Shown here: positions 4,145 through 23,307 of the stretch, in pieces
Numbering within the stretch: the first letter of the stretch is position 1
How the letters are laid out: every line of letters begins with the position of its first letter
IMG/VR virus record: IMGVR_UViG_3300044647_000668
Location: 1-25,329 of that record
DNA length: 25,329 bases
Reading direction: 5' to 3' (one strand)
From: a virus
Notes under the pieces: model-generated
The model's input: the letters and a program-made list of their open reading frames with translations, nothing else
Told to the model about the DNA's origin: nothing
The model's database searches: none
Program-made: the position numbers and the translations under genes

Positions 4145-4284
4145 TTGGTCGCCTCCGTAATGTCTTCTAGGCACGCCTGCGCCGAGTCCAGCCACAGCAC
4201 GTGCGCCCCTGCGTGCGCGATCTCCTCGGGCGTGCTGCCGTCGGCCCATGCGAGGACACGGGCGATATCTTCAACGCTGATCAC
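4141..4284 (-). CDS. Small protein, 47 aa
   Basis: This 47-residue frame has GTG at 4284, overlapping the stop of the GIY-YIG gene (GTGA), and a TGA that overlaps the GTG of the HTH gene in the same way. The protein (starting MISVEDIARVLAWADG) is helical and acidic and its last codons, for ITEATK, contain the GGAGG used by the HTH gene. The double GTGA coupling is strong evidence that it is translated. The pattern VEDIARVLAW...TPEEIAHAG resembles a small HTH or dimerisation fold, but this is only an impression. Confidence 0.65.
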   Translation of the reverse strand: MISVEDIARVLAWADGSTPEEIAHAGAHVLWLDSAQACLEDITEATK

Positions 4285-4943
4285 TTCGCACACACTTCAG
4301 TATCTTGCAAGTAACGATCGCGCTTCATGCCGAGCAACGTGCTCCACGGAAGACCAGTTGCCGTAGGCCATTCGCGGATATTGACCTCTGGAAAATCTGC
4401 CAGCCATTTTTCAAATCTGATCTTGTGATCTTGCACGATCTTCGGAAAGGACTCGTAACCGTACTCAGGAAACGACTCTTCGGTGATCAAATCCGACATG
4501 AGAGTGCCGCGCAATAATCTTTGAAAATGCACTTGTGCGGCATCGACTGAGAAGATTGCGGGATGCTTGATGTCTTTATAGATGCTCTTTCTATCGTTAC
4601 ACCTTGGATTCCACCGTCTTATAAGAATGGTTTCTAGTCGTAGCGCCGTGTTCTTATCAAGCTCTGCGGCCTCAATGCGCCAGTCGAATATTTCCCATGC
4701 AAACTGTGAAGTGCTTATGTGGTTGCCCATCCGGTGCCAAGGGTCATTCGTGATGCCGACGTAGATGCATATCTTGTTGTCATCCCAAAACGAATAGACG
4801 ATATATCCGTTAGGACCCATGCCGTGAGGCTGGATCTGCCACATCTTTGAGCGAGCAACGTTCTCAACACTTGCCTCAAAACGTTCATCATCGGTGCTGG
4901 CGTTGTCCCAGTCGAAATCACACTTGACGTCTTCGACGGTCAC
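4281..4943 (-). CDS. GIY-YIG family endonuclease-like protein, 220 aa
   Basis: The start is GTG at 4943, overlapping the stop of the HTH gene as GTGA. The GIY-YIG core is visible at residues about 47-115: GYIVYSF, then ICIYVGITNDPWHRMGNH with Tyr61-Val-Gly and Arg71, then the catalytic glutamate in ALRLETILIRRWNPRCN (Glu104) with Asn112. The rest (about 120-220) is aromatic and charged and may bind DNA. Base composition is clearly more AT-rich than the neighbours and the codon use differs, which suggests recent arrival. Free-standing GIY-YIG proteins in phages can be homing endonucleases; a nicking or repair role is also possible. It sits neatly inside the operon, so it is not a simple interrupting insertion. 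Confidence 0.8.
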   Translation of the reverse strand: MTVEDVKCDFDWDNASTDDERFEASVENVARSKMWQIQPHGMGPNGYIVYSFWDDNKICIYVGITNDPWHRMGNHISTSQFAWEIFDWRIEAAELDKNTALRLETILIRRWNPRCNDRKSIYKDIKHPAIFSVDAAQVHFQRLLRGTLMSDLITEESFPEYGYESFPKIVQDHKIRFEKWLADFPEVNIREWPTATGLPWSTLLGMKRDRYLQDTEVCAK

Positions 4944-5125
4944 TTCGCGGCCCTCCTGGCGATCCACTGGTCGATGGTGTCGCGTCGCCAGAGTGGTTTC
5001 TGGTCGACGACGTAGTCGGGGTCTGGCATGGCCCCGTCGGCCCGGTGGGTCTTGATTGTTTCGACGCTGAGGCCCATGAGGTCGGCGACGTCGCGCCGGC
5101 TGAGGAGCACGTTCATGTTCGTCAT
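4940..5125 (-). CDS. MerR/excise-type helix-turn-helix protein, 61 aa
   Basis: A 61-residue protein with the pattern LLSRRDVADLMGLSVETIKTHR (residues 7-28, helix-turn-helix), then GAMPDPDYVVDQKPLWRRDTIDQWI, a small wing and the WxxxxIDxW ending. This is the classic winged-helix layout of AlpA/Xis-like and MerR-like small DNA-binding proteins. It is the first gene of the leftward operon and lies opposite the rightward leaderless promoter, so autoregulation or control of the divergent operon is a reasonable inference. The start at 5125 follows AAGGTGAG; ATG at 5116 is an alternative. An excisionase role would need an integrase, which is not in this window. Confidence 0.8.
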   Translation of the reverse strand: MTNMNVLLSRRDVADLMGLSVETIKTHRADGAMPDPDYVVDQKPLWRRDTIDQWIARRAAK

Positions 5126-6025: not shown

Positions 6026-6226
6026 TCATTTGTTGAAGTCGACACCGCCCCAGATGCCGTGCCGTTCCCGCCGCTTCCTCGCGACCTTGAGGCACTGCGT
6101 CCTGACTTCGCATTCGCCGCAGATGCGGATCGCCTGGCCGTGCTCGAAGGAATGCCGGTCGGTCGCGAACCACAGCTCGGGGTCGACGTCCCTGCACGCC
6201 GCTAGTTCGATCCAAGGCTTATCCAC
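6026..6226 (-). CDS. whiB: WhiB-family iron-sulfur transcription regulator, 66 aa
   Basis: Four cysteines at residues 11, 36, 39 and 45 (spacing Cx24Cx2Cx5C) are the WhiB ligands of a [4Fe-4S] cluster, and RHGIWGGVDF near the C-terminus is the family's GIWGG turn, followed by few basic residues. WhiB proteins bind the primary sigma factor region 4 and steer host or phage promoters. Here it converges with the small rightward operon and diverges from the transglycosylase gene. The start is uncertain: GTG at 6226 or 6232 fits the family but has no Shine-Dalgarno sequence; an ATG at 6301 would add an unusual Cys/Trp-rich 25 residues. The family identification is secure; the N-terminus is not. Confidence 0.88.
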   Translation of the reverse strand: MDKPWIELAACRDVDPELWFATDRHSFEHGQAIRICGECEVRTQCLKVARKRRERHGIWGGVDFNK

Positions 6227-6305
6227 GGCCACGGCCGGCCATGACGAGGAGCACCACGCAGACGCAAAACTCCAGAAACATGAACCACAGCACGCCATCA
6301 TGCTA

Positions 6306-6324
6306 GGGTCAAAGGAGTTGACCC
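6306..6324. promoter_or_regulatory. Perfect 7-bp inverted repeat between whiB and the transglycosylase gene
   Basis: GGGTCAA-AGGAG-TTGACCC is a palindrome with 7-base arms and a 5-base centre. It lies in the divergent intergenic region, a natural place for an operator. The centre also reads AAAGGAG, a ribosome-binding site placed before a GTG at 6326 whose frame is not that of the transglycosylase. Confidence 0.45.
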
Positions 6325-6389
6325 GGTGAGATTCCGGCTCTTGCGCCCGATGTGTGCGCCGTCCCTGTCCCCGAGTGATCGGACAATCA

Positions 6390-6818
6390 ATGTTAGAGAA
6401 TCTGCTATTCGCTGCGTCAATGATCATCCCCAACGAGCAACCAGCAAGCGCCCAGGCTCGCATCGTTGCGACTGCGGCCCGCATCCCCACCGCGTGGGAA
6501 CCCTTCAGGGATTGCGTGGTGAACCGTGAGAGCCACGGGAACCCGAGGGCACAGAACCCCGTCAGCTCGGCCCAAGGGAAGTACCAATTCCTCGATACGG
6601 CGTGGCGTAGAGGTGCCGGCTGGAACGTCTACTCGCGGCTTAGGGATGCCGGTATGCCGCGACCACAGGCGAGGGCGATCCTGGCTCGACTCCACGTCAC
6701 GCCGATCAAGCGCTGGCGTGAGGAGTACCAGGACGCTGCGTTCGCGTTCGTCATCCTCATCCCTCGCGGCTGGCGTCACTGGGCCGGTGGTCACGGCTGC
6801 GATCGCCTCGTCCCCTAG
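6390..6818 (+). CDS. Secreted lysozyme/transglycosylase-like protein, 142 aa
   Basis: The core at residues about 36-65 (WEPFRDCVVNRESHG, then AQNPVSSAQGKYQFLDTAW) is that of lysozyme-fold transglycosylase domains, with the probable catalytic glutamate Glu47 in RESHG and the GxYQF substrate-groove motif. The C-terminus RHWAGGHGCDRLVP is the usual end of such domains in actinobacterial and phage proteins. The N-terminus MLENLLFAASMIIPNEQPASAQA looks like a weak signal peptide with an Ala-x-Ala cleavage site. The start at 6390 has only GGA as ribosome-binding site; a GTG at 6354 would add a basic n-region. It would cut peptidoglycan glycan strands, acting outside the membrane. It stands apart from the holin/endolysin cassette. 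Confidence 0.75.
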   Translation: MLENLLFAASMIIPNEQPASAQARIVATAARIPTAWEPFRDCVVNRESHGNPRAQNPVSSAQGKYQFLDTAWRRGAGWNVYSRLRDAGMPRPQARAILARLHVTPIKRWREEYQDAAFAFVILIPRGWRHWAGGHGCDRLVP

Positions 6819-7465: not shown

Positions 7466-7972
7466 ATGACCCTGCGGGACGTAACCCTGACGATCATGTG
7501 CGGCCCGCCCGGTGCCGGCAAGTCGTACTGGATCGCGGCGAATCGCACCACCGAGGAACTGCTCAGCACGGAGATGGTTCGTAGGATGTCGGCGATCGGC
7601 CGCCGATCCAGCCCCAACCAGCTCGCGGGGATCAAGCTCCTCGCCCCCGACCTGCTCCGTCGAGGCCAGTCCGTGATCGTCGATGCTTGCTCGACGAAGG
7701 TTCAGGACCGCCGCGACTGGCTCAGCATCGCGAGGTTCGCGTCAGCGCACACTCGCATCGTCATCGTCGACACCGACCTGGAGACTTGCCTCGCCCGGCA
7801 GGCCGAGCGTGGCACTGCTGGAGTGCCCGAGCCGATCATCCGTCAGCACGCCGACAGGATGCCCCACGCGATAACACTCATCCCGCTCGAAGGCTGGGAG
7901 GACATCGTGACGGTCACTGGTCGAGTCGAAGGCTCCCGAACGGGGTCCACGCTGACCAGCCCAAATACTTGA
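7466..7972 (+). CDS. P-loop kinase, polynucleotide-kinase-like, 168 aa
   Basis: The Walker A motif GPPGAGKS stands at residues 13-20, after a hydrophobic strand (VTLTIMC). VIVDACST (about 72-79) fits the second strand with an acidic residue, and IVIVDTDLETCLARQAERG (about 98-116) followed by VPEPIIRQHADRMP is the lid/base-recognition arrangement of the T4 polynucleotide kinase-type and related AAA kinases. It would transfer phosphate from ATP, perhaps to a nucleic-acid 5' end in RNA repair; no ligase or fused phosphatase is seen here. Its last 59 bases overlap the endolysin gene on the other strand. Family-level kinase assignment is secure, substrate is inference. Confidence 0.75.
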   Translation: MTLRDVTLTIMCGPPGAGKSYWIAANRTTEELLSTEMVRRMSAIGRRSSPNQLAGIKLLAPDLLRRGQSVIVDACSTKVQDRRDWLSIARFASAHTRIVIVDTDLETCLARQAERGTAGVPEPIIRQHADRMPHAITLIPLEGWEDIVTVTGRVEGSRTGSTLTSPNT

Positions 7973-16316: not shown

Positions 16317-16985
16317 TCAGCCGTTGATCGTGACTGTCGGCCCCCGGAACCGATGCCCTTCGAGGGCGAGATTCACGAACGGATTCAGGCTCATAACGCC
16401 GACACCCATCGACCGGAGTTTCCTCGCGACCTTCGGGAGCTGCTCCTCCCACACTGCGAGAGGCTTCGGATCACCTGGCGCGTACCCTTCGACCGCATCC
16501 CGATCGTCGAGGGTGCCGCAGTCCGCGCCGACGAGAACAATGAAGCGTGCCCCGAGGTATGCCGCGAAATGCATCCCCATATGAAGCGACGTCGGCCCGC
16601 ACACGAGGTGATCGTCATGCGTCGGCCAATGCTCCGCCGTGTCGAACGACGAGTACATCTGCGGATTCGTCTCGACGAAGAACACATTCGCCTGGTCGGG
16701 TCGTGTCTTCGCCGGGTAGCCGATGCCCTGCTCGACCATCGGCACGATCACCGGAAGATCCGGCCGCGCATCCGCGAGAATGTGCGCGTCCAGGTGGTAG
16801 TGGGTGACGGAGTAGAACTGATCGAGGCCGAGCGCCTCCCCCGCCCGGTTGATGCACACGACGATCTTGTCGTCGAGGAACCCGGACGGTAGATGGTTGA
16901 GGGTCGCACCGGAGCCGACGACGTAGATCGTTGACCCAGCGTGCCGACGTTTGAAGTCCGTGTACTGCTCAGCCATCAGTCCCAC
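16317..16985 (-). CDS. MptE-like/DUF115-type protein, putative sugar-modification enzyme, 222 aa
   Basis: The N-terminal GSTIYVVGSGATLNHLPSGFLDDKIVVCINRAGE (about residues 17-50) is the Rossmann-type nucleotide-binding start of the DUF115/MptE-like family, whose members include motility accessory factors that work on glycans. It continues with HLVCGPTSLHMGMHFAAYLG and FIVLVGADCG, a second beta-alpha unit. In phages such genes travel with glycosyltransferases, as here. GTG at 16985 (GGAGGG 7 bases upstream) is chosen; ATG at 16976 is possible. Substrate is unknown. Confidence 0.65.
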   Translation of the reverse strand: MGLMAEQYTDFKRRHAGSTIYVVGSGATLNHLPSGFLDDKIVVCINRAGEALGLDQFYSVTHYHLDAHILADARPDLPVIVPMVEQGIGYPAKTRPDQANVFFVETNPQMYSSFDTAEHWPTHDDHLVCGPTSLHMGMHFAAYLGARFIVLVGADCGTLDDRDAVEGYAPGDPKPLAVWEEQLPKVARKLRSMGVGVMSLNPFVNLALEGHRFRGPTVTING

Positions 16986-17617
16986 GAGTTGACCCTCCTT
17001 CGTTCCAGACTCCAGCCTCCCGGCCCCGGCTGCGACCGCTTCCCGTTCATGTACTCCGCGTTCGACGCGTACGTGCGGTTGTTGATCTCGCCGAAGTATC
17101 CGATCGTCGACGAATTGTGATGCATGACCGGGATCGTTGACCGCTTCACCTTCACGCCCTCGATCGCGCAGCGCAGGTCGTAATCGTTGTCCTCGAAATA
17201 GGCCGGATGGAACGCCTCGTCGAACAGTCCGACACGCTGCACGACATCCTCACCGACCGCGAACGCACAATACGGCTGCGGAGACTGGGCGAGGAGCACA
17301 TCCTCGCCGCTCGCCTGCTCCGCGAACGCTTGCAGCGACCCGGACGGCCACTCGACATCAAAGTTAGTTATGAGCCACCAGGGGGCGAACGGTGCCGCCT
17401 TAATCCCGAGATTCCACGACCCTGCGACCCCAAGGTTCGCGGGCATCTTGATTATCTTCGTCGACTGGACGTGCTCGACCGGCCAAGGCCCCGAGTAGCG
17501 CAACGCATCCCCGTTATCAATGATGATCAACTTCGCGACCGGGTAGTCGATCGTGTCAAGCATCCGCCGCAAGATGTCAGGGCCGACAAGGATCGGAACA
17601 ATCATGCACGGGATCAT
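16976..17617 (-). CDS. Glycosyltransferase family 2-like, 213 aa
   Basis: The start is the ATG at 17617 in an ATGA overlap with the upstream glycosyltransferase. VPILVGPDILRRMLDTIDYPVAKLIIIDNGD, then KMPANLGVAGSWNLGI and ITNFDVEWP are the GT-A signature: nucleotide-sugar fold, NxGxAGxWNxG, and an FDxE/DxD metal site near residue 85. YFEDNDYDLRCAIEGVKV is the family's acceptor/catalytic loop with the ED base, and HHNSST the closing His. It should transfer a sugar from a nucleotide sugar; the acceptor may be a virion protein or the host wall. Confidence 0.8.
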   Translation of the reverse strand: MIPCMIVPILVGPDILRRMLDTIDYPVAKLIIIDNGDALRYSGPWPVEHVQSTKIIKMPANLGVAGSWNLGIKAAPFAPWWLITNFDVEWPSGSLQAFAEQASGEDVLLAQSPQPYCAFAVGEDVVQRVGLFDEAFHPAYFEDNDYDLRCAIEGVKVKRSTIPVMHHNSSTIGYFGEINNRTYASNAEYMNGKRSQPGPGGWSLERRRVNSWD

Positions 17618-18810
17618 CGCAACTTCTCCATCGCAGGGAGCCAATAATTATTGAACACGAAATCAGCCCCGTACTGGGACGCGAAGTCCTGGGCGACCTG
17701 CGACCGTTCACGGCCCCGAGCGTATGCCGCTTCCATCGCCTCGATGATCGACGGCACCGACGGGGTGACCATCCACGCGCCCTGCATCGCGTCCCACCAC
17801 GGCTGCCCCTCCACCAGCCACCCGTCACCGAGCAGCTCCGGTGACGCTGTCGTGTTGGTGCAGATCACTGGCGTGCCGCACGCCTGGCTTTCTACTTGTG
17901 GAATGCCGAACCCCTCACCCATGCTCGGGATGAGGAGGCAATCGATAGCACTGTAGATTGCTGCGAGGAGATCGTTACCGACGCCGCTGCGGAACACGTA
18001 CTGGTCGACGAACCGCAGTTGATCCGGTTTCAGGTCGCACGCGGCCGCCAGCTCCAGCAGATTGATCCCCGACATCGCGCCCCGGTCCTCGGTGTGGATG
18101 TAGAGGACGGCATCGGGGTGATGCTTCGCGAACATCGCGAACGCCAGGAACGTCTCCGGGAAGCTCTTCCGATTCGGCACCATGCCCTTGTTCGCGGACA
18201 CCATGCCGAACACGAACCTGTCCTCGTCGATCCCCATGAACTCGCGGCCCGTCAACTCCTTACCGCCCGCCGTGATGCTCTTGGTCGGCTTGAAGATCGG
18301 GTCGATGCCGTGCGGGACATAGATCGAGTCGATGCCAGCGTTCGCGAGCATCGCCTCACCGAACCGCGACATCGCGAGCGGGGTGACATTCTTGCGACCG
18401 CACCACGCCGCGACCTTCGGCGGAACCGGGGTGTGATCAATCGGCACCCACGACGCGATCTGCGGGATCGAGTCCCACTGCGGCCCACCGAAGACGTAGA
18501 CGTCGTAGAGGGTGACGAGGAGCGGATCGAGGTCTGGGTTCTCATGCGCCCACGCCTGATAGTGCGCCGGCACGACATCGTTCGAGTGGATATCGAACCC
18601 TCGGGGGTACTGCCTGATCCCATGCCAGTCGAGGGTCGTCCCCTCAAGGCCGTGGTTCGAGGCGACGGCCATCCGGTGCCCTGCGGCTTGCAGCCGGGTG
18701 ATCACCTGGGCAGTTTGTCCACCGTAACCGGACCTTGCCCAAGGGCTGTTGGAGTTCCACAGGATCGCCCGGCTCGCCGAGCGTGGTGCCTTTCGTTTCT
18801 TCTGAGCCAT
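17614..18810 (-). CDS. Glycosyltransferase family 4 (GT-B), 398 aa
   Basis: The N-terminal half begins with ILWNSNSPWARSGYGGQTAQVITRL, the acceptor-side Rossmann domain. The C-terminal donor domain has RFVFGMVSANKGMVPNRKSF and IPSMGEGFGIPQVESQACGTPVI, where Glu299 and Glu307 make the EX7E motif of GT4 enzymes. It is complete in length. It would add a hexose from a nucleotide donor. It lies straight after the capsid gene and is co-translated with the GT2 gene. Sugar-decorated capsids and tails are known in several actinobacteriophages with glycosyltransferases by the structural genes, so virion decoration is likely but not proven. Confidence 0.85.
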   Translation of the reverse strand: MAQKKRKAPRSASRAILWNSNSPWARSGYGGQTAQVITRLQAAGHRMAVASNHGLEGTTLDWHGIRQYPRGFDIHSNDVVPAHYQAWAHENPDLDPLLVTLYDVYVFGGPQWDSIPQIASWVPIDHTPVPPKVAAWCGRKNVTPLAMSRFGEAMLANAGIDSIYVPHGIDPIFKPTKSITAGGKELTGREFMGIDEDRFVFGMVSANKGMVPNRKSFPETFLAFAMFAKHHPDAVLYIHTEDRGAMSGINLLELAAACDLKPDQLRFVDQYVFRSGVGNDLLAAIYSAIDCLLIPSMGEGFGIPQVESQACGTPVICTNTTASPELLGDGWLVEGQPWWDAMQGAWMVTPSVPSIIEAMEAAYARGRERSQVAQDFASQYGADFVFNNYWLPAMEKLR

Positions 18811-18897: not shown

Positions 18898-20100
18898 TCA
18901 GGTTGCAGCGCCCACGAAGTGCTTGATGTGGGACGTCTGCGGGAGGTCACCGTCGACCCGGAACGTGCAACGGAACGTGATGAGATCCGCGCTGAACGCG
19001 AAATCATCGGAACGATCCAGCCGGATGCCGCCGACGGTCCTGACGTAGTACGACGGGAAGTGACCCGCGATGACGGACTTCGCGGATGCACCGATCGCAG
19101 CCATTGCCGGGTTCTCGTACAGCGGGACACCGAGCACACGATCCGGTGTCGACTCCGACATCGAGGGCTGGAAGACGAAGTTGCCCGCGCCATCCTTCAG
19201 GGTACGCATCGCAGCGATTGAGGAACCCTTCGCCATGAAGCCGATTCCGGGAAGCGCACGCGCAGCCGGATCGAGCGAGTAGTACAGGCTGACGAGGTTC
19301 TCGTACGTGAATGCGCCAGTCGTTGCGAGGCCGGTGCCACCGATGAGGGCGGAACCCGACGCCGTGACGACACCATTCGGCTCAGTCGTGTCGGTGCCCG
19401 TGGTGAGCGCCGTATTCACTGCGAAGCCGAGTGCGTTGCCGCAGTTCATGGCGAGCAGATCAAGGATGTTGACCCCTGAGTCTTCGAGAAGCTCGCGGCT
19501 GATCTGGGTGAGGAACCCGTACTTGAACGCGCCGAGGGTGATGAACGCAGAGAATGCGGGATCGGACTCGCCGAGGGTCGCAGCCTGCGCGTTGACGGTG
19601 CCGACCGAGTAGGTGGAGAGTCGAGGGATCTGAAGATTCTCGCCGCCCGCAGTGTTTATGGTCGTCGCCACGTTCAGCATCGGACCAACCGCACGCGCCA
19701 GCATGATCACCTGGTCGTAGAACGACGTCGGAACCGGTGCGCCCGTGGAGGACGTCAGCACATCGCGACGCTCTTGACCGAACTCAGCGGATCGGATCTC
19801 GCCACGGGCGAGGCTGCGGATGGTCTCAACATCGTTGGACGGCTTGACGATCTGGCCGACGGGCCGGATCTGATCCTCTGCACCTTCCTGCGACGCACGA
19901 ACCTCAGCCTCGTGAGCCGACATGCGCTTCAGTTCCTCGATCATCGTCGACCGGCGGGAGAACTCCTCCGTGGTGCGATCGAACGCGATGCGCTCGTCGA
20001 CGGTCATTGCGCGATCCTCCGCGGCGCAGAGATCGACGATCGCCTTCGCGGCTTCGAGATCCTTCGCCCGTGCTTCGTACTGGGCTTTCAGAACGTCCAT
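18898..20100 (-). CDS. Major capsid protein, HK97 fold, 400 aa
   Basis: Residues 1-85 are a charged coiled coil (VLKAQYEARAKDLEAAKAIVD, FSRRSTMIEELKRM), the scaffolding-like delta domain that the prohead protease removes. From about residue 115 the HK97 pattern is present: TGAPVPTSFYDQVI, LNVATTINTAGGENLQIPR, FGFLTQISRELLEDS (here KYGFLTQISRELLEDS), FAVNTALTTG and, near the end, IRLDRSDDFAFSADLITFRCTFRVDGD. It builds the head shell. It lies directly after the protease gene. AAAGG is its ribosome-binding site, with a structured leader upstream. Confidence 0.9.
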   Translation of the reverse strand: MDVLKAQYEARAKDLEAAKAIVDLCAAEDRAMTVDERIAFDRTTEEFSRRSTMIEELKRMSAHEAEVRASQEGAEDQIRPVGQIVKPSNDVETIRSLARGEIRSAEFGQERRDVLTSSTGAPVPTSFYDQVIMLARAVGPMLNVATTINTAGGENLQIPRLSTYSVGTVNAQAATLGESDPAFSAFITLGAFKYGFLTQISRELLEDSGVNILDLLAMNCGNALGFAVNTALTTGTDTTEPNGVVTASGSALIGGTGLATTGAFTYENLVSLYYSLDPAARALPGIGFMAKGSSIAAMRTLKDGAGNFVFQPSMSESTPDRVLGVPLYENPAMAAIGASAKSVIAGHFPSYYVRTVGGIRLDRSDDFAFSADLITFRCTFRVDGDLPQTSHIKHFVGAAT

Positions 20101-20204: not shown

Positions 20205-21803
20205 TCAGGCCTGCATCTCCATCAAGGCTAGGAGCTGCTTCGCGACGATCAGCGAATTGTCGGGCTTGACGTCCTTCGGTGCGAGCTGGTCGACGACACC
20301 GCGAATGAGATCCGCCTGCGCCGCATCCAACTCCTCACCCGACTCCAACGTCACCAGTGCGGCCGCGAGCGTCACCTCGTCGACTGCGACCCGTGCCGCG
20401 AGTTTCCGAACGGAAGCTGTCGTGGCAGCATACGCTGGCTGGCCTGTGACGACCGATATTTCGTGGAGCCTCACTTCTGTCAGGGTGCGACGTGAACCAT
20501 CCGCCGACCACGTGTCGCCACCGCGAGGCACGGAGAACCCGAACGACATCGAGTCGACGATCCGCTGCTCAAGAAGGATCGACATGTTCCGGCCGTCCGT
20601 CGTCATCGGCAGATCAGCGTCCGCGAGCAGACCCTTCGAGTCTTCCTGCAACCGCAGCGTCCCCGACCTCGTCGACGCGAGGAGCTGCGAATCGTTGTGG
20701 TTGACGTACATGCGGATGTTGTTCCGGCTCTTGAGCGTGCGGGCGAACGCCCCGCGCTGGATCCGCTCGATGAACGGCAGCGGCTCACTGTCGCTGTCGA
20801 ACACGGCCGCGTACCCCTTGAACGTCATCTTGTCGCCGACCGCACGGATCTCCATGTCGTCGACGAAGTGTGCCCGAGTCTCCATGACTGTTGTCGCCTT
20901 CCTCGTGGCCGGCGGAAGCTCGCCGACATTGACCGCTGTAATCCCGAGCGCCCGATACATCCGGCGCATTGACGCATTGTTCTCTACCGCGAGGACGACG
21001 TCGTACTCCTCCAGGAGCCGCTGCGCCGTCTCGCGCTTGAAGTTGAGGGTGTCGGACGTCGCGCCTGGGTTCATCAGCAACTCTTCATACTCGACACCGG
21101 CAGCGGCGAGCGCCCGGATTGTTGCCGCCCGCTGGTCCTCGTTGCGGCCCGTCACGATGTAGACGTCTTCCTCAGTCTCCTGGAGGAATGCGACCGTCTC
21201 CGCGATCGGGGTGTCACCGTTGAGGATTGTCCCGTCGATGTCACTGATGATGATCGGTTCCCCGCCAACAATCCGGCTGCTCATCTCGCCCTCTCGAATC
21301 AGTTCCGCTTGCCGGTCGAACCATGCACGAGCCGGAGCAGGATCAACAGGATCAATGCCCCACAAATAATGTGCCACCGCGCCGGGTCCCGGGAAGTTGT
21401 CGTCACCTGCATCATTATTCTGCGGAGCGTCCAGATCGACCTCATGACGTGCCGCCCACGCCGACGTGCGCAGCACCTTGTCGTCACTGATCTGACCGTC
21501 AGCCATCAGCCGGGCTTCCCGCACCGTGCCGGCCGTGACCCCGTCGCCCGCCTCGCCAGCCTCGAACAGTTCGACTCCACGGCTCGCAGCGTCCCGAATG
21601 TAGGCAGGGATCTCGCCCGTGATCCGCTTCCCGGGTGCTGGCGCACGCAACTCGCCACCCGGCTCCATGTCCTCCGCGAGGGACAACGCGACCATCTGGT
21701 CGACCGCGCCCTGCTTCGACTCGTGGCAGGCGATGACCTCACCGTCAGCCTTCACCACCGCCCACGAGGGACAGTCCGTCGCGTCAGAAATAAAGTACGG
21801 CAT
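20205..21803 (-). CDS. Three-part prohead protease with internal HAD phosphatase-like domain, 532 aa
   Basis: Residues 1-50 are a small domain (VVKADGEVIACHESK). Residues 58-172 (IPAYIRDAASRGVELFEAG to LWGIDP) form a helical module often joined to phage capsid proteases. Residues about 183-295 are HAD-like: DIDGT (188-192), VTGR (217-220) and Lys256 in NFKRETA, with a weakened fourth motif VENNAS. Residues about 306-465 are an HK97-type prohead protease with His369 in YVNHND, Ser420 in SMSFGF and ISVVTGQPAY. The rest, 466-532, is helical, like a scaffold tail. The protease should process the capsid; what the HAD domain dephosphorylates is unknown. It stands in the normal protease position between portal and capsid genes. 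Confidence 0.85.
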   Translation of the reverse strand: MPYFISDATDCPSWAVVKADGEVIACHESKQGAVDQMVALSLAEDMEPGGELRAPAPGKRITGEIPAYIRDAASRGVELFEAGEAGDGVTAGTVREARLMADGQISDDKVLRTSAWAARHEVDLDAPQNNDAGDDNFPGPGAVAHYLWGIDPVDPAPARAWFDRQAELIREGEMSSRIVGGEPIIISDIDGTILNGDTPIAETVAFLQETEEDVYIVTGRNEDQRAATIRALAAAGVEYEELLMNPGATSDTLNFKRETAQRLLEEYDVVLAVENNASMRRMYRALGITAVNVGELPPATRKATTVMETRAHFVDDMEIRAVGDKMTFKGYAAVFDSDSEPLPFIERIQRGAFARTLKSRNNIRMYVNHNDSQLLASTRSGTLRLQEDSKGLLADADLPMTTDGRNMSILLEQRIVDSMSFGFSVPRGGDTWSADGSRRTLTEVRLHEISVVTGQPAYAATTASVRKLAARVAVDEVTLAAALVTLESGEELDAAQADLIRGVVDQLAPKDVKPDNSLIVAKQLLALMEMQA

Positions 21804-21812
21804 GAGGCCCGC

Positions 21813-23162
21813 TCACGGATATACGCTCGCCGGATCGGCCGGATTGATCGACGCAACCGACTGGAGCGACGTCACCGGAATGCCAGTGTGAGCGATCGCC
21901 GGCATGTCAAGAGCCTTCAACGCCTCCGCAGGATCGAAGCCGGCCATGATCAACCGCGTCAACATTTGCGTCTTCCGGTCGGTCTCCACAATGTTCGCGG
22001 CCGCGAGGTTCACGTTCGCGAGCGGCACCCGATACTCGTCGCCACCGTCAGCGGGAGGCATATCTTCGAGCCGGTGGATGTCGTTGACGGAGAGGAACCC
22101 AGCGAGCTGCCCCGTCGAGTACGCAGCGAACCTCGTCTGAATATCGCCCCGCAGGATCGCGTCAAGGTTGAACTTCACGAACGCCGGCCCCGGCAGCAAC
22201 GTCGACAACGCCGTCTCAAACTTCGAGATGATCGGCCGGAGCGTGTACTGCGCAAACTGAATCGCGTTCTGCTCCACGCTCGCGTACGACATCGCACCCG
22301 GTGTCGCGACCTGGAGAAGATGCAACGGACAGCGGAAGATCCGGGCGATCTCCTCCACCGAGAACTGACGCGACTCCAACATTTGCGCCTCGTTCGGGTC
22401 GACACCAGTCTTCACGAACTTCGCCCCACCGAACAGGACACCAGGACGATGCGCCCGACGTAGCCCCTTATGGCCTTCCTCGAACCCGTCGGCGAGATCC
22501 TTCGCCTGCTCCTTCGTCAGATTCCCCGGCCACTCGATCAACCCCTGAGTCGTCGACCCCTGCCCGAAGAACCGCGCCGAGAACTCCTCAAGAGCAGACG
22601 CCAGCCCCAACATCTGTTTCACTTCCTCGATCCGGGACACGCCACGCAGCGCACCCGGCCGCCGCAGCTCCGTGATGTGCAGCACCTCCGCAGCGGTGAG
22701 AACCGCACCGGCCGCACCCTCGATCGCATACTCGACCTCGCGGGTCGCCGGATTCCGGCGCACCTCCACCCGAGTGGGATCGAGCACCGTCAGGCTCGTC
22801 ACCTCACCGGCCCGGCCCCTGAAGATCCGAATAAAAACGTTCCCATCGAGGAGCAACGACACCATCGCCTGTTGCAAAAAGTCTTCCCGAGCCATCCCGA
22901 TATCGGGACGCTCCACCCATATCGGCTTCGGCCGGAACACAAGCCGAGCACCACCCTCACGGTAAAACGTGTCCACCGGCAGCGTCGAGATCGTATCCGC
23001 CAGGAGCCGCACGCAGGCGTACACCGTGCCGATCTTCAGGCTCGTGTCGTACGTGACGACAGTGCCCGCGTACGTCTCCCGCGCGAGGTTGCCGCCACTG
23101 GCGAAGATCGTCTGGAACGATACGGCCCGCTCTTCACGCGGTCGAAGGAGACTACCCAGCAT
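21813..23162 (-). CDS. Portal protein, HK97 type, 449 aa
   Basis: The ATG at 23162 with GGAG 7 bases upstream is chosen. KIGTVYACVRLLADTISTLPVDTFYR, then LLLDGNVFIRIFRG and LDPTRVEVRRNP, VLHITELRRPGALRGVSRI, and VEEIARIFRCPLHLLQVA are the conserved blocks of the HK97/phi-lambda-like portal family. A ring of twelve such subunits forms the DNA gate of the head and binds the terminase. Length is normal. The start overlaps the end of the small membrane-protein gene by 11 bases. Confidence 0.92.
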   Translation of the reverse strand: MLGSLLRPREERAVSFQTIFASGGNLARETYAGTVVTYDTSLKIGTVYACVRLLADTISTLPVDTFYREGGARLVFRPKPIWVERPDIGMAREDFLQQAMVSLLLDGNVFIRIFRGRAGEVTSLTVLDPTRVEVRRNPATREVEYAIEGAAGAVLTAAEVLHITELRRPGALRGVSRIEEVKQMLGLASALEEFSARFFGQGSTTQGLIEWPGNLTKEQAKDLADGFEEGHKGLRRAHRPGVLFGGAKFVKTGVDPNEAQMLESRQFSVEEIARIFRCPLHLLQVATPGAMSYASVEQNAIQFAQYTLRPIISKFETALSTLLPGPAFVKFNLDAILRGDIQTRFAAYSTGQLAGFLSVNDIHRLEDMPPADGGDEYRVPLANVNLAAANIVETDRKTQMLTRLIMAGFDPAEALKALDMPAIAHTGIPVTSLQSVASINPADPASVYP

Positions 23163-23307
23163 CAATACGCTCCAAAATGACGCCGACCAGGACGCCCGTC
23201 AGTCCGAGCGCAATCAATCCCGCCGGAATACTCCACACGAACACGCCCACATTCACGAGGAACAGGCCCGCGCCCTGCACGATCACGGCCACTAATGCCC
23301 TCCTCAT
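23152..23307 (-). CDS. Small hydrophobic membrane protein, 51 aa
   Basis: A 51-residue frame (starting MRRALVAVIV) begins in an ATGA overlap with the terminase stop and ends inside the portal start. Two hydrophobic segments (VAVIVQGAGLFLVNVGVFV and IPAGLIALGLTGVLVGVI) predict one hairpin of membrane helices with Arg-rich ends. Codons for ILER supply the GGAG used by the portal. Position between large terminase and portal is unusual for a membrane protein. Similar short hydrophobic proteins occur there in other actinobacteriophages, with unknown role. Confidence 0.65.
   Translation of the reverse strand: MRRALVAVIVQGAGLFLVNVGVFVWSIPAGLIALGLTGVLVGVILERIDAG

Follow-up and report, generated by a model that had tools for sequence, protein, structure and literature searches.

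A conserved HAD phosphatase domain within a viral HK97-type prohead protease and its possible role as head cargo

Why should the protease that matures a phage head carry a phosphatase? The question is raised by one open reading frame in the 25,329 nucleotides of viral DNA analysed here (IMG/VR record IMGVR_UViG_3300044647_000668; the whole stretch is referred to as the window). A sequence-only reading of the window had described a 532-aa protein that joins a HAD-like domain to a complete HK97-type protease, and profile searches as well as the predicted fold bore this out. The same reading had placed a single helical module at the N-terminus. A helical part was indeed present there, but it is preceded by a separate cap, so that the region consists of two modules. 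The features of the locus are as follows.

21813..23165 (-): portal protein, directly upstream of the fusion ORF
20205..21803 (-): whole 532-aa protein, consisting of cap, helical module, HAD phosphatase, S78 prohead protease and C-terminal helices
21648..21803 (-): N-terminal cap, residues 1-52, beta-beta-beta-alpha, kept in most relatives and in split and protease-less forms
21288..21614 (-): helical 'ARH...WG' module, residues 64-172, phrog_2859-like
20907..21263 (-): HAD phosphatase domain, residues 181-299
20859..20906 (-): disordered linker between HAD and protease, residues 300-315, pLDDT < 50, candidate cleavage region
20406..20858 (-): S78/HK97 prohead protease domain, residues 316-466
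20697-20699 (-): catalytic His369
20544-20546 (-): catalytic Ser420
20208..20258 (-): helical tail at the protease C-terminus (residues 516-532), NSLIVAKQLLALMEMQA
18898..20100 (-): major capsid protein (Phage_capsid)

A phosphatase domain inside a prohead protease

The fusion ORF is separated by 9 nt from the preceding portal gene and by 104 nt from the major capsid gene that follows, and this order of portal, protease and capsid is that of HK97-type proteases. Residues 317-466 were assigned to Peptidase_S78 (PF04586; E 2.9e-38, 132 bits, cut-off 21) and likewise to an HK97-type prohead protease by PHROGs, and TIGR01543 (proheadase_HK97) scored 103.8 bits (cut-off 59). His369 and Ser420 were found as stated in the sequence-only reading and were invariant in a 21-row alignment. 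A full-length AlphaFold model (mean pLDDT 73) showed separate domains joined by flexible linkers; pLDDT fell below 50 at residues 53-62, 172-181 and 300-315, and the HAD domain is thus flanked by disordered linkers on both sides. Cap and helical module predicted alone reached a pLDDT of 91.8. A fold search of this part against the PDB gave no match (best E 0.72), and its fold matched only predicted viral proteins, by annotation prohead proteases, XkdF, portal, capsid, HAD-like and Dps proteins. An origin of the fusion in an assembly artefact or frame error was ruled out by dozens of independent contigs with several architectures. No description of a HAD/prohead protease fusion was found in the literature collection searched.

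The HAD sequence falls between two Pfam families. HAD_PNKP (PF25109) scored 30.5 bits (cut-off 27.6) on residues about 181-299, and Acid_phosphat_B (PF03767) scored 31.7 bits (cut-off 27) with a match to profile positions 121-202 of 230 only. The region was also matched by the polynucleotide kinase family phrog_415 (E 7.9e-15), and its best profile match in the PDB was Pnkp1 (E 2.1e-7). In a Foldseek search with the HAD model, T4 Pnkp and bacterial Pnkp1 ranked first. VIA-align gave a Z of 17.9 with the T4 Pnkp 3'-phosphatase (1rrc; 1.9 A, 119 residues) and of 17.4 with Pnkp1 (4xru), followed by Nir2 (14.8) and lipins (12.7). Structure prediction and profile search, the checks suggested for this segment by the sequence-only reading, therefore both returned a HAD domain, and the proposed resemblance to the phosphatase half of polynucleotide kinase/phosphatase enzymes was confirmed with T4 Pnkp as the closest fold.

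The model and a set of 38 divergent relatives showed all four HAD motifs in a Rossmann-type fold. The motif residues of the window domain are D188, D190, T218, R220, K256 and E274-N275. Among the 38 relatives, which are mostly about 30-45% identical, D188, D190, T192, T218, R220, K256 and N275 were invariant, and position 274 of motif IV was D in 20 and E in 18. The fourth motif (ENN) had earlier been taken for weakened and the domain for possibly inactive. This view did not hold: as D and E alternate next to an invariant N, ENN is the norm of the family and no defect, and motifs I-III are invariant, so that inactivity owing to ENN was rejected. The median omega (Nei-Gojobori) of the HAD domain was about 0.10, compared with 0.11 in the helical module and 0.06 in the protease, and the HAD domain is under purifying selection. 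Acid_phosphat_B matched all 38 domains (partial profile) and HAD_PNKP 29 of them (E 0.01 or better). Judged by its motifs, the window protein is a real prohead protease with a conserved, catalytically intact phosphatase domain.

With T4 Pnkp and bacterial Pnkp1 the window domain shares the whole-domain fold, the DxDGT, T-G-R and K motifs and the lack of a large cap. It differs in that it has no kinase, is shorter after motif I and is built into a prohead protease; moreover, where a profile alignment shows DD in motif IV of Pnkp1, N275 is invariant in the 38 relatives, so that the second acidic residue is absent throughout. Class C acid phosphatases have a D-N pair at motif IV, as does the HAD family described here. 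However, the match to class B/C acid phosphatases covered mid-profile positions only, and the window domain has neither their signal peptide nor their cap region. Motifs I and II are 28 residues apart and motifs II and III 38 residues, which leaves little room for a HAD cap domain. A capless HAD layout suits large substrates such as nucleic-acid ends and proteins.

Exchangeable modules among related proteases

Relatives of the fusion protein were encoded on 54 viral contigs, and a HAD-based scan gave at least 423 viral contigs with relatives. The HAD domain was present in 82 of 147 non-identical complete S78 ORFs, a collection that is biased towards HAD. For a further sample we picked 52 complete ORFs solely by the protease domain of Pontimonas phage phiPsal1 (MG835450), the nearest cultured relative. 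The helical module was found in 50 and the cap in 44 of these, Tudor in 14, 4-Cys modules in 12, HAD in seven, DUF5824 in five and a Dps-like ferritin in two. The earlier statement that prohead proteases normally stand alone does not apply to this clade. Between the conserved cap and the protease lies a slot whose content and order vary: HAD, Dps-like ferritin, 4-Cys, Tudor, DUF5824 and helical modules occur there, as in the following architectures.

Window: cap-helical-HAD-protease
L038: cap-HAD-helical-protease
L041: cap-HAD-protease
L157, L159: two HADs flanking the helical module, in 648-aa ORFs
L044, 462-2498: HAD and Dps-like ferritin (PF00210, E 3.3e-11) in a prohead protease
L045, L057-L064, L253: also a Dps-like ferritin adjoining HAD in a prohead protease
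L035, L042, L043: Tudor-like region, not HAD

Like other HK97-type prohead proteases, the window protein has the same His and Ser and the same gene order, and to these it adds an N-terminal slot with swappable enzymatic modules. The phage phiPsal1 agrees with the window in gene order including the glycosyltransferases, and in cap, helical module and protease; its slot, however, is occupied by a 4-Cys module and not by HAD. Comparison of the window with locus L001 gave a pS of 0.02 in the helical module versus 0.41 in HAD, from which we conclude that modules were swapped by recombination. The 4-Cys modules (CxxC...C...C) lie at 1645-2001 in L116, at the C-terminus of an ORF in L040 and at residues about 57-113 of the phiPsal1 protein (L056); they possibly bind metal or Fe-S. 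They recurred as passengers of proteases and as a free gene with a protease-like tail. In ORFs of about 700 aa from other aquatic phages (L069, L070, L072, L079 and L083), Dps, Cys-rich and DUF5824 modules of the same pool were chained.

Among GenBank phage records, 482 matched the fusion protein, mostly via the protease. With HAD as the query, annotated PNK genes were the only ones among the matches listed, unannotated records aside. A profile scan of the genome_contigs collection yielded six loci; half of these came from a Microbacteriaceae MAG (L162-L164), and no HAD was found in these three.

Shared tails, split forms and internal starts

The HAD domain was not confined to fusions. At eight loci of one lineage (L153, L155, L160 and L168-L172) HAD has a gene of its own (135 aa), which overlaps with the end of the protease gene, and the capsid gene follows it at the three loci where the next gene was read (L153, L155 and L160). 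The C-terminus of the free HAD (SRCLHLSLARAIARRV) resembled that of the protease (SRGIDLSLARAKARRI) at 11 of 16 residues. This shared tail scored 46 versus 26 for the runner-up among 2837 ORF tails, and the comparison was repeated against 7795 tails. The same codon was used at only 1-2 of the 11 shared residues. As the codons differ, the tail is kept by selection on the protein; a recent DNA duplication as the source of the likeness was ruled out, codons differing at nearly all shared residues. At L116, the gene immediately following the protease encodes a small 4-Cys protein, whose tail was the best match of 7795. The window tail (NSLIVAKQLLALMEMQA) corresponds in position to the tail that protease and free HAD have in common at the eight loci. 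The lineage with the clearest shared tail differs from that of the window, however, and its tail sequence is not that of the window (SLIVAKQLLALMEMQA); no other ORF of the window was found to carry SLIVAKQLLALMEMQA.

A split form was encoded at L040, where an ORF with cap, HAD, helical and 4-Cys modules is followed by a separate protease ORF that starts at a Met homologous to an internal Met of fused relatives. In L122 and L125 the block of cap, HAD and helical module was joined to a C-terminus without protease, which in L122 had a weak match to a minor head protein. By eye the C-terminus of these ORFs (L122 3337-4998, L125 4636-6291) is like an ADP-ribosyltransferase, in the place where relatives have the protease. 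The next protein in L122 is Zeta-toxin-like (PF06414, E 3.3e-17). Free HAD genes outside the head region were found in L133 and L150. The same HAD module is thus found in fusions, in a split form and as a free gene that bears a protease-like tail.

Two possible internal starts in the window ORF coincide with domain boundaries.

21282..21296 (-): possible internal start M174 at the HAD boundary, SD-like GAGAGGG, SD pairing stronger than at any other of the 36 in-frame start codons
20883..20903 (-): possible internal start M307 of a free protease, AGGAAGG then ATG, second strongest SD of the 36

In 37 divergent ORFs, the start and SD signal at the protease boundary had a mean of 3.31 versus 1.86 (p < 0.0002), and the SD was above threshold in 32% versus 12%. 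This enrichment makes it probable that many members produce the free protease separately as well; several proteases lacked any signal for an internal start. For the HAD boundary the same 37 ORFs gave no SD enrichment (p = 0.24), and an internal start there as a family-wide feature was not supported. The sequences point to a separate HAD start in the window's subclade only.

Cargo, alternatives and host

What might a phosphatase do in such a position? We lean slightly towards the HAD domain being an enzymatic cargo, carried into the prohead by the protease and afterwards set free, because disordered linkers flank the domain, because modules swap in one slot, because a split form exists (L040) and because the free HAD gene carries the C-terminal tail of the protease. 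The fusion would enter the assembling prohead since the protease does, probably via the C-terminal helical tail. During maturation the protease might then cut the flexible linkers. Once free, the phosphatase would remain with the DNA and be active in the virion or after entry into a new cell; phosphorylated ends of DNA or RNA, or nucleotides, would be plausible substrates. The second start codon would probably yield a passenger-free protease and so let the doses of enzyme and cargo differ. Against this reading, cargo freed in the prohead could exit via capsid openings or be degraded.

A different partner for the phosphatase had been suggested from the window sequence, namely a PNK-like kinase lacking a phosphatase, and this ORF was confirmed on the plus strand.

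7466..7972 (+): Pnkp-like kinase without phosphatase

The HAD domain and this kinase might be the two halves of a split polynucleotide kinase-phosphatase acting jointly in end repair, and phrog_505 is indeed matched by both ORFs, at its kinase half (3-143) by one and at its phosphatase half (193-291) by the other. We regard this as highly improbable: unlike the linked 5'-kinase of Pnkp, the kinase is not fused to HAD, motif IV is [DE]N where Pnkp has DD, and a homologue of the kinase was present in only one of 20 contigs with this protease family, several of which are fragments, and that one is a near relative. The pairing of the two proteins was thus not upheld. Nor do we think it probable that the modules including HAD have a purely structural, non-catalytic part, as spacers or as scaffold mass by which the prohead core is shaped or filled. 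Such a role would fit with a helical module and cap that are near-universal (50 and 44 of 52) and with module contents that vary, but the catalytic HAD residues would hardly be invariant in 38 relatives at mostly about 30-45% identity, and the major capsid protein already has an N-terminal extension resembling a helical delta-type scaffold of its own.

Somewhat more weight, although we still consider it unlikely, should be given to a cytoplasmic HAD acting late in infection, for example in the cleaning of DNA 3' ends before or during packaging or in nucleotide recycling. The fusion would then provide no more than co-expression with the head genes, HAD would be trimmed or made separately, and its packaging would be incidental. 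The Pnkp-like fold, the start with a preceding SD that the window's subclade has at the HAD boundary and the free HAD genes outside the head region (L133 and L150) are all in line with this. However, co-expression alone does not require that the protease-adjacent free HAD keeps the protease tail under selection, the Dps-like, 4-Cys and Tudor slot-mates have no common cytoplasmic role, and the HAD-boundary start is not enriched family-wide.

The reading of HAD as cargo might extend to a general way of cargo loading, which we put forward tentatively and with some doubt. The protease of aquatic actinobacterial phages would be a carrier with an exchangeable slot for enzymes such as phosphatase, Dps-type ferritin, 4-Cys and Tudor modules. 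Its tail would be a tag for import into the prohead, transferable and also acquired by free cargo genes, and proteolytic maturation would free the enzymes into the head for delivery with the genome. To our knowledge, packaged phage enzymes have so far been separate proteins, each with its own targeting peptide. If the cargo reading is confirmed, a capsid protease itself would bear interchangeable enzymes. If true, the protease tail would further represent a short natural tag to load proteins into small siphophage heads, and certain 30-kb phages, whose genomes can hardly take up additional genes, would deliver enzymes at infection.

Comparison with known systems suggests that the fusion is a variant on a known theme of head-packaged phage enzymes. 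P1 DarA/DdrB are processed and packaged, and T4 Alt is injected (PMC5512222). For T4 Alt and the internal proteins, P1 DarA/DdrB and the SPN3US ejection proteins a like logic may be proposed, in which a targeting peptide leads into the prohead, the protease cuts and the protein travels with the DNA; here, in contrast, the protease itself would be the carrier, and the proposed C-terminal peptide would be shared with the protease. The C-terminal domain of the SPN3US protease was proposed to package this protease into the prohead (PMC7411985), and by analogy the tail common to protease and free HAD resembles this proposed targeting signal. Polyvalent proteins (Iyer et al. 2017, PMC5512222) are also mosaic multidomain phage proteins with head loci and effector-like enzymes. 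The architecture described here would fit this class if its modules act as effectors, and the ORFs of L122 and L125 join the same HAD to a minor-head-like C-terminus. The main text of that paper contains none of the terms 'phosphatase', 'ferritin', 'Dps', 'S78' and 'polynucleotide kinase'.

The probable hosts are members of the Microbacteriaceae or related actinobacteria, because of the host of phiPsal1, the MAG contigs L162-L164 and a WhiB-like ORF. The latter, 6026-6490 (-), ends by eye in a WhiB-like Cys-rich domain as in phiPsal1, which hints at an actinobacterial host. Past the capsid gene, three genes at 16317-18810 (-) encode a GT4 glycosyltransferase, a second glycosyltransferase (phrog_29879) and an MptE-like protein, and phiPsal1 has a similar glycosyltransferase block in the same place. 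A further ORF at 4281-4967 (-) contains a GIY-YIG nuclease domain (PF01541, 24.2 bits, cut-off 22.6) and is possibly a homing endonuclease.
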